30,396 nucleotides of DNA from a virus: IMG/VR virus record IMGVR_UViG_3300046777_000609, positions 1 through 30,396 of that record. One strand, 5' to 3'. The notes beneath the pieces are model-generated. The model was given only the letters and a program-made list of their open reading frames with translations. It had not been told where the DNA came from and did no database searches. The translations under genes were made by a program, and so were the position numbers. Shown one piece after another: positions 8,519 through 10,310 of this stretch (the first letter of the stretch is position 1; the number at the start of each line of letters is the position of its first letter).

Positions 8519-8563
8519 CCCCTGCCGGTCATCCGCTCCCCTCGGCCGGCAGGGGTCTTTTTC
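8519..8563 (+). terminator. Rho-independent terminator
   Basis: A perfect 10-bp GC-rich stem CCCCTGCCGG/CCGGCAGGGG (8519-8528 with 8546-8555), a 17-nt loop, and then TCTTTTTC (8556-8563). This is a textbook intrinsic terminator on the + strand. It separates the terminase-to-scaffold block from the capsid block. Confidence 0.88.
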
Positions 8564-8569
8564 ATTTGA

Positions 8570-8598
8570 TTGACAGTATTCCTTCCGCAGGGTATTTA
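8570..8598 (+). promoter_or_regulatory. Putative promoter for capsid operon
   Basis: A perfect -35 TTGACA (8570-8575) is followed after exactly 17 nt by TATTTA (8593-8598), a 3/6 match to the -10 consensus; the sequence onward is AT-rich (TATTTATTAAT). It lies 7 nt after the terminator's T-run, and transcription would start near 8605. This suggests that the capsid block is transcribed independently, with a leader of about 130 nt. Confidence 0.6.
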
Positions 8599-8612
8599 TT
8601 AATCAACCTTCG

Positions 8613-8699
8613 ATGGTGGTCACGTATCCACTGCTCGACGCCCGTCACGTATCGGGCTCCTTGGCGGGGTTAAGCCAATCGACGCCGTTACGTATCGGC
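8613..8699 (+). other. Structured leader: tandem stem-loops with shared T(C/T)ACGTAT loop
   Basis: Four consecutive hairpins, each with an 8-nt loop. HP1 is GTGG-TCACGTAT-CCAC (8616-8631). HP2 is CCCG-TCACGTAT-CGGG (8641-8656), extendable by G8640-C8657. HP3 is TTGGC-GGGGTTAA-GCCAA (8661-8678). HP4 is GCCG-TTACGTAT-CGGC (8684-8699). HP1, HP2 and HP4 share the loop while their stems differ by compensating changes, which favours an RNA structure. TCGACG/TCGAC precedes HP2 and HP4. The ACGT core is self-complementary, so loop-loop pairing is possible. The array ends 36 nt before the start at 8736. Function is unknown. Confidence 0.6.
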
Positions 8700-8735
8700 A
8701 CCTGAACCAAACCCAATCAACGCATGGAGTGTACC

Positions 8736-9332
8736 ATGAGCTATGGCACTAACGCGCCCAAGGGTCTTCAGCCTGTCCGTATGTTGGACGGCTCGGCTTG
8801 GACTGGCGCGCTCAACAGCTACCAGATCGCCTCGACTTACGCGACTGCTCTCTATACCGGCGACCCGGTGACGATCCTGACTGACGGCACCCTTGGTGTT
8901 GGCGTCGCCGGCTCGGCTATTGTCGGCGTTTTTGCTGGCGTGAAGTACATCGACTCGACTGGTGTCCCTAAGTTTCAGGCTTACTGGCCCGGCAACCCCG
9001 GCGTCCTGACTGGCTCGACTGTCGAAGCCCTTGTCATCGATGACCCGAACGTCGTGTTCACCATTCAGGAAACCAGCGGCACCGGCACTGCGGGCACCCC
9101 GCTTGCTCTGGCCGATCGGGGCCTGAACGCGAACTTCCTGTACACCGCCGGTACGGCTGCCACTGGCCAGTCTGCCGTGTCGCTGAACAACGCTTCGGAA
9201 GCCGATACGAGCACGCTGAACCTGAAGATCCTGCAGCTGGACCCGACCCCGGGCAACGCTGTCGGCGCCTTCGCGAACTGGCTCGTCGTCATCAACAACC
9301 ACCTCTACAAGGGTGGCGTGACCGGCATCTAA
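8736..9332 (+). CDS. Putative capsid decoration/head accessory protein
   Basis: A 198-residue protein, the first gene of the capsid block. ATG 8736 (MSYGTNAPKG) is preferred because GGAG at 8726-8729 lies 6 nt upstream; an in-frame ATG at 8724 would overlap that site. The sequence is small-residue and beta-rich (DPVTILTDGTLGVGVAG, AIVGVFAGVKYID) with no signal peptide or membrane segment, and ends in VVINNHLYKGGVTGI. Proteins of this kind directly upstream of the major capsid gene are usually head decoration or stabilising proteins. The call comes mainly from position and composition. Confidence 0.6.
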   Translation: MSYGTNAPKGLQPVRMLDGSAWTGALNSYQIASTYATALYTGDPVTILTDGTLGVGVAGSAIVGVFAGVKYIDSTGVPKFQAYWPGNPGVLTGSTVEALVIDDPNVVFTIQETSGTGTAGTPLALADRGLNANFLYTAGTAATGQSAVSLNNASEADTSTLNLKILQLDPTPGNAVGAFANWLVVINNHLYKGGVTGI

Positions 9333-9356: not shown

Positions 9357-10262
9357 ATGGCAATTAATACCACTCAGATCCGCGACCTGCTCCGCCCGGG
9401 GCTTGCTGCGGTGTTCGGTGACTACCCGATGTATCCGGGTCAGTGGTCGGAAATCTTCGAAAAGCACACCTCCGATAAGGCGGTGGAAATCGAAGTTGAA
9501 GTCAAGCTGCTTGGTCTGGCTCAGATCAAGGCGGAAGGCGCTTCGACCGCTTATCAGGACATGGGTCAGCGTTATGTGACCAACTACGTGAACCGTTACA
9601 CGTCGGTTGGTTTCATCATCACCCGTCAGGCGATCAAGGACAACCTGTACCAGTCGTCGTTCCCGCTGCAGGCGAAGGCTCTTCGTCAGTCGATGGAACA
9701 GACCAAGGAAGTCCTCGGCGCCTCGGTCCTGAACAACGGCTTCTCGTCGAACTTCCCGATCGGCGACGGCCAGCCCCTGTTCTCGACCGCTCACCCGATC
9801 GACAACGGCACGGTCGCCAACACCTTCACGGTGCAGGCCGACCTGAACGAAACGTCGCTGCAGGACGCCATCGTCGGCGTTCAGCGCTTCCGCGACGTGG
9901 CCGGCCTTCGCATCATGACGAAGCCGACCAAGCTGATTGTTCCGGCTGAGCTTCAGTGGACGGCTACCCGCCTGCTGGAATCGCAGTTCCGCGTCGACAC
10001 CGCGAACAATGACATCAACGCGATCTACAGCAACTCGGCCGTGCCGCAGGGCTATCGCGTGAACATGTTCCTGACCGACACGAACTCGTGGTTCCTGATG
10101 ACGGACGCTCCGAACGGCTTCAAGTACTACGAACGTGAAGCTCTCGAAACCGATGTCTACACGGACTTCGACACCGACAACCTCAAGGCCAAGGCCATTG
10201 AGCGTTACTCGTTCGGCTGCTCGAACTTCCGCGCTGGCTGGGGTTCGCAGGGCGCTTCGTAA
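9357..10262 (+). CDS. Major capsid protein (HK97 fold)
   Basis: A 301-residue protein that should form the head shell. The N-terminal part has the arm and E-loop-like charged region (FEKHTSDKAVEIEVEVKLLG), followed by a spine-helix-like segment (QAKALRQSMEQTKEVLGASV) and the 'PLFSTAHP' motif seen in Mu gpT-type major head proteins. The beta-rich C-terminus contains MTKPTKLIVPAELQWTA. Codon use is strongly biased to C-ending codons, as expected for a highly expressed gene, and GGGAG (9344-9348) lies 8 nt upstream. It follows scaffold and decoration-type genes. A stable hairpin follows its stop. Confidence 0.88.
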   Translation: MAINTTQIRDLLRPGLAAVFGDYPMYPGQWSEIFEKHTSDKAVEIEVEVKLLGLAQIKAEGASTAYQDMGQRYVTNYVNRYTSVGFIITRQAIKDNLYQSSFPLQAKALRQSMEQTKEVLGASVLNNGFSSNFPIGDGQPLFSTAHPIDNGTVANTFTVQADLNETSLQDAIVGVQRFRDVAGLRIMTKPTKLIVPAELQWTATRLLESQFRVDTANNDINAIYSNSAVPQGYRVNMFLTDTNSWFLMTDAPNGFKYYEREALETDVYTDFDTDNLKAKAIERYSFGCSNFRAGWGSQGAS

Positions 10263-10271
10263 TCGGACACC

Positions 10272-10293
10272 GGGGGTGGCTTCGGTCACCCCC
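10272..10293 (+). other. Stable UUCG-tetraloop hairpin after major capsid gene
   Basis: GGGGGTGGC (10272-10280) pairs with GTCACCCCC (10285-10293) around TTCG, giving a 9-bp stem with one G-U pair and a C(UUCG)G tetraloop, which is exceptionally stable in RNA. No T-run follows, so it is probably not a terminator. It may shield the capsid mRNA from 3' exonucleases or set the expression ratio with the downstream gene. Confidence 0.65.
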
Positions 10294-10310
10294 AGCTATG
10301 GAGAGAAACC

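Follow-up and report, generated by a model that had tools for sequence, protein, structure and literature searches.

The coat operators of RNA phages such as MS2 and Qbeta are single hairpins at the replicase start, whose fixed loop is linked to the capsid protein. For gene 43 of T4 an operator hairpin with a fixed loop is found ~40 nt upstream of the start codon; this T4/RB69 operator is a single hairpin in front of the polymerase gene that is bound by a phage protein and whose sequence reaches the ribosome-binding site (PMC3014915). The leader of T4 gene 32 contains a single pseudoknot, which is not conserved in the related phage RB49 (PMC3014915). The put RNA of HK022 is ~70 nt long and comprises two stem-loops, with putL being located just downstream of its promoter (PMC9378689). 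Except for a few coliphages, little is known about how tailed phages set their large excess of capsid protein at the RNA level.

Here we characterize a tandem array of hairpins in front of the capsid genes of a 30.4-kb virus record (30,396 nucleotides, referred to as the window). The array is a real, previously uncatalogued RNA element that probably controls capsid production in a large phage group of which most members are uncultured. With the gene 43 operator it shares a leader hairpin with a conserved loop, but it is built from two to three tandem copies with free stem sequences that are located near the 5′ end and before capsid genes. Compared to autogenous operators of the T4 gp43/gp32 kind, a conserved leader RNA structure is thus present while the reach to the ribosome-binding site is missing. 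Like put RNA, the array places stem-loops close to the (here inferred) start of a phage operon transcript. However, put consists of two long stem-loops without a repeated octaloop module, whereas the array has two to three modules of ~22 nt that share a fixed octaloop. The MS2/Qbeta coat operators are similar in having a fixed-loop hairpin tied to a capsid protein, but are single and belong to unrelated viruses.

Searching the window against Rfam 15 with E values up to 5 provided only sub-threshold matches, none of them over the array (one spurious match ends at 8617). At the gathering score, no match was obtained over the leaders of L266, L278, L289 and L146, with only a tRNA being found in L146. 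A literature search, which was limited to open-access papers and had partial coverage, revealed no description of the array. This agrees with the initial annotation, for which no described element of this layout was known. While leader operators of phages are already known (T4 genes 43 and 32), the tandem octaloop array with its clade-wise loop exchange is new. Being widespread, statistically solid and located before capsid genes, it adds a new RNA family that can be used in annotation, and illustrates how a structure can be retained at its site even though the presumed recognition sequence is exchanged.

The array and its surroundings

In 5′ to 3′ direction the window carries terminase and portal genes, a GroES-like gene, a scaffold-like gene, a 157-aa gene, a terminator, a promoter-like site, the array, a 198-aa gene and the capsid gene. 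The GroES-like and scaffold-like identities are inferred from position, sequence and the gene order in annotated relatives. The features around the array are as follows:

8519 to 8562, + strand: intrinsic terminator (CCCCTGCCGG...CCGGCAGGGG-TCTTTTT) that ends the upstream transcript (sequence, scan)
8570 to 8598, + strand: promoter-like site TTGACA-17-TATTTA (sequence; absent from the consensus-scan list)
8611 to 8631, + strand: unit A1, CGA and hairpin GUGG-UCACGUAU-CCAC at 8616-8631 (fold, covariance model 33.8 bits, covariation)
8636 to 8657, + strand: unit A2, CGA and hairpin GCCCG-UCACGUAU-CGGGC at 8640-8657 (fold, covariance model 25.9 bits, covariation)
8661 to 8678, + strand: class B hairpin UUGGC-GGGGUUAA-GCCAA with a GG-rich loop, preceded by CC (fold, relatives)
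8680 to 8699, + strand: unit A3, CGA and hairpin GCCG-UUACGUAU-CGGC at 8684-8699 (fold, covariance model 22.1 bits, covariation)
8700 to 8735, + strand: AC-rich unpaired linker and Shine-Dalgarno sequence (GCATGGAG) (sequence, fold)
8736 to 9332, + strand: first gene of the operon, decoration-like protein of 198 aa (PHROG_37556, all-beta model)
9357 to 10262, + strand: major capsid protein (PF10124 Mu gpT-like, phrog_371 major head protein)
10271 to 10294, + strand: GC-rich hairpin after the capsid gene, without U-tract

Three of the four hairpins have the loop U(C/U)ACGUAU in common while their stems differ (GUGG/CCAC, GCCCG/CGGGC and GCCG/CGGC), as initially annotated. The stem length of 4 bp that had been given for all three applies to the first and the third, but the second stem has 5 bp. 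The fourth hairpin with its different loop was also correctly recognized. Furthermore, the TCGACG/TCGAC motif had been assigned to two copies only, whereas CGA precedes all three (8611, 8636, 8680). In relatives, class B-like hairpins with a GG-containing loop and varied stems recur between the A units; a CC:GG pseudoknot could form here but is not established.

The minimum-energy fold of positions 8575-8745 includes all four hairpins, with the first one being extended outward. Since the total folding energy of this region is ordinary (z = +0.2), the signal of the array lies in repetition and covariation rather than in stability. Triples of 4-bp stems with 8-nt loops within 90 nt, in which the loops differ by at most one base and the stems are different, occur once in the window and in none of 300 Markov-randomised 30-kb sequences, for which hairpin pairs were found at 0.027 per sequence (n = 300). 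A U-tract is absent after all four hairpins, such that the array does not qualify as an intrinsic terminator or attenuator.

The promoter-like site was omitted by the consensus promoter scan, since its -10 hexamer fails the -10 rule of the scan. From the sequence we infer that the capsid transcript starts near 8605, just before the first unit. In 64 of the 66 leaders compared, TTGAC and the first CGA are 36-41 nt apart, and this nearly fixed spacing places the first unit at the start of the inferred transcript. Transcripts starting only downstream of 8700 would have refuted the initial interpretation; both the promoter-like site upstream of the array and the near-fixed spacing argue against this. 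In the L061 and L079 leaders a hairpin resembling an intrinsic terminator has the TTGACA in its loop and a -10-like TATTTT in its tail, such that terminator and promoter-like site occupy the same DNA.

Conservation, covariation and distribution

Relatives with capsid proteins 95-97% identical to that of the window were taken from viral contigs, and the whole collection was searched for the tandem pattern. Two or three units are present in each of the 66 distinct homologous leaders (three in 55, two in 11). For the covariation analysis we used 97 distinct units that were picked by loop and CGA only, i.e. ignoring pairing. In these units 96.9% of the stem cells were paired compared to 58.6% in shuffles, and all four stem pairs varied on both sides. 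The covariation score, which is not an R-scape statistic, was 0.845 compared to 0.178 after shuffling, with 0 of 500 shuffles reaching this value. When the register was slid, pairing dropped to 28.6-46.4%. Of the 63 distinct ACGT-centred 16-mers in the leaders 35 were fully paired (shuffled mean 5.1, maximum 13), while only 28 of 969 ACGT sites elsewhere in the same contigs paired. The proposed selection for structure together with a fixed loop is thus supported, as hairpins and loop are kept in 66/66 leaders and the stems covary strongly.

The fixed parts of the unit are the CGA, which is near-invariant, the closing G-C pair and the loop U-H-ACGUA-Y, in which position 2 is mostly C and an occasional ninth base follows ACGU. 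The octanucleotide loop is therefore kept in relatives, as had been assumed, but its constant part is narrower and its length not strictly fixed. All units have the same orientation, with no reverse-oriented unit being found in the leaders compared, which fits the expectation for an RNA element. Units with stems like GGCCG...CG(U/C)GCC (L006, L076, L110, L470) contain an apparent single-base bulge on the 3′ side after two bp.

Among ~2.9 million viral contigs the tandem pattern matched 75 times, with 74 matches being located upstream of the decoration-like gene (three of them on contigs that end before this gene and were recognised by the upstream gene). The remaining match, L135, is a chance tandem inside coding sequence of a phage without homologues of the array-linked genes. 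Searching with the covariance model R1, strong units were confined to the capsid leader in 16 phage records, some of which are 50-60 kb long, as well as in five further array-bearing records, while matches elsewhere were scattered and scored far lower. The covariance-model search that had been suggested as a check thus gave strong units at this one location in the phage records searched. In G030 the array is present at 741-766 and at 61587-61658, i.e. at both ends of the 61.8-kb record, which suggests a complete genome with overlapping ends.

A host origin of the tandem was also considered. From 25 pattern matches in bacterial and archaeal genomes only L172 and L177 have both hairpins as well as the phage genes, while the others do not fold into both hairpins. 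L172 and L177 look like phage contigs binned in MAGs and, judged from sequence, the tandem array is not a host element. The two MAGs are from different phyla (Alphaproteobacteria and Actinomycetota), so that the host is not settled. A DNA similarity search in annotated phages gave no useful match. Phages outside the array-bearing clades whose capsids are 33-48% identical (HTVC023P/027P, CRP-902, GB2A and others) lacked the class A array.

In more distant phages the element is kept or exchanged. Clade 3, whose capsid is 72-74% identical to that of the window, keeps the unit on new stems. Together with L436, L437, L470 and L521 it provides stems such as GCCAA/UUGGC and GAACG/CGUUC. In these more distant units 97.5% of the cells were paired compared to 66.1% after shuffling, values that rest on an alignment fitted to the covariance model. 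In clade 2 (phages like MW202675.1, with a capsid identity of ~45-48%) exactly two hairpins with the octaloop CYCGGYG(U/C) were found in 52 of 58 distinct leaders. All six pairs of their stems covary (84.0% paired vs 58.6%, score 0.704 vs 0.244). In clade 4, with 58-71% capsid identity, tandem H-type pseudoknots occupy the capsid leader instead of the array. Reading by eye, their second stems are compensated (GACC:GGUC, GACA:UGUC, GCGA:UCGC and others), and a pseudoknot scan gave 13 solutions, including slight double counting of overlapping ones, compared to a null mean of 0.41 and a maximum of 2. We consider these pseudoknots, on sequence evidence, a further uncatalogued RNA element. In kind they resemble the pseudoknot in the leader of T4 gene 32 (PMC3014915), but are tandem rather than single and are located upstream of capsid genes. 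Pseudoknot leaders are L418, L420, L422, L423, L426, L427, L431, L432 and L435.

When the RNA type is placed on a capsid tree with 45 rows, its four states require three changes, the smallest number possible. All 36 array-bearing sequences are grouped on one side of a branch with good support (100/99), while the type A group is weakly supported (76/50). The tree has long branches, such that the deep joins may be unsure.

Possible roles of the array

The element is a real, conserved RNA structure with a fixed loop and CGA that is present at one location per genome record and replaced by other loop types in sister clades. That it acts in cis, and in which role, can only be inferred, as there are no partner, transcript or phenotype data. 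Tentatively, we favour that the modules bind one sequence-specific partner, most likely a phage-encoded protein, which sets translation or lifetime of the capsid mRNA. The decoration-capsid mRNA would have the element right at its 5′ end, each module consisting of CGA, a 4-6 bp stem of free sequence and the octaloop UHACGUAY, in two or three tandem copies. Since the stems are free while the loop is fixed, the loop together with the CGA would be recognised and the stem would provide structural support. The presence of several copies would suit multivalent binding of one partner, with the module number determining avidity or cooperativity. Binding may then set translation or lifetime of the mRNA, e.g. 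by autogenous control through a product of the capsid operon. The strict linkage to one operon and the exchange of the loop type between phage clades suggest that the partner varies along with the phage, and since the loop type follows the capsid tree, a partner co-evolving with the phage would be suited. A more specific version, which we regard as rather unlikely, is that each loop type (UHACGUAY, CYCGGYGU, covarying pseudoknots) binds a clade-specific capsid-operon protein, such that assembly would feed back on the capsid mRNA via RNA-protein coevolution in a tailed DNA phage; the capsid leader would then be an RNA interface that is rapidly re-tooled by wholesale replacement of its recognition loop. 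The natural loop-swap variants (type 1, type 2, pseudoknot) offer a direct way to test for the partner. Repression by simple steric hindrance is not obvious, since 45-90 nt separate the last loop from the start codon, with the Shine-Dalgarno region being open and outside the array. A host factor as partner cannot be ruled out, since the clades may differ in their hosts as well.

Alternatively, the array could stabilise the mRNA: its hairpins would hinder 5′-end-dependent decay while a hairpin after the capsid gene would shield the 3′ side, providing a long-lived decoration-capsid mRNA in which the loops only serve stem-loop stability. Such 5′ stem-loops are known for ompA and papA (work cited in PMC3997798). 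The first hairpin is indeed only few nt away from the inferred transcript start, the linker before the Shine-Dalgarno sequence is AC-rich and open, and in 34/34 distinct relatives the capsid stop is followed by a strong, GC-rich hairpin without U-tract. Similar post-capsid hairpins also occur in phages without the array, some with U-tracts. Stabilisation leaves, however, the invariant ACGUA loop core, the near-invariant CGA and the two to three copies with the same loop unexplained, and stems of 4-5 bp are poor barriers. We therefore consider it unlikely, even though it ranks highest among the rivals. Less probable again is a cis-acting antiterminator like HK022 put, in which the nascent array would bind the host RNA polymerase and cause read-through of pauses or terminators in the long structural operon. 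Its position directly after the promoter-like site at the head of this operon would fit, but terminator-like sites within the operon are no commoner than in shuffles, and no U-tract follows the conserved hairpin behind the capsid gene. In addition, small repeated octaloop modules do not resemble put RNA with its two stems and ~70 nt, and the loops of sister phages are unrelated to them.

The self-complementary loop centres (ACGU, YCGG) offer another option, that loops pair between hairpins of one or of two transcripts. Both the clade-1/3 loop and the clade-2 loop hold a self-complementary tetranucleotide, and kissing loops had been brought forward in the initial annotation. This idea did not find support: only the central ACGU is self-complementary, the outer pair of the hexamer is not kept with position 2 being mostly C, the two loops in the clade-3 leaders L502 and L498 are non-complementary, and compensatory loop-loop changes were not seen. 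We consider such dimerisation improbable. Least plausible of all are operators at the DNA level, i.e. repressor sites or cruciforms that directly follow the promoter. Tandem near-identical cores beside a promoter-like site would be in line with them, but the arms differ between copies and are nonetheless compensated, which a sequence-specific binder of duplex DNA does not need, and all units have a single orientation.

For a phage-encoded partner, as favoured above, the partial annotation of one relative contained no convincing RNA-binding protein. Against this model, the first gene product is decoration-like and without known RNA-binding fold. Its predicted all-beta structure (pLDDT 88) has capsid-stabilising proteins as best, though weak, structural matches, such that we rejected it as RNA binder by fold. 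A TadA-type UACG loop was ruled out as loop position 2 is mostly C, and pairing of the array loops with the start-codon region as the window lacks a complementary UACGG. No tRNAs that could indicate a tRNA link were found in the window or in three relatives scanned. At 8730-8750 of the window, the start codon of the decoration-like gene is covered by a hairpin (CCAU-GAGCU-AUGG), which in most relatives' leaders reads CCGUA-UGGCU-UACGG; some compensatory change is seen, with coding constraint limiting the inference. Comparing G003 and G001 with the window, the capsid protein is 95-96% identical while neighbouring genes are mostly at 40-80%, from which the capsid gene appears unusually conserved in the window's clade.
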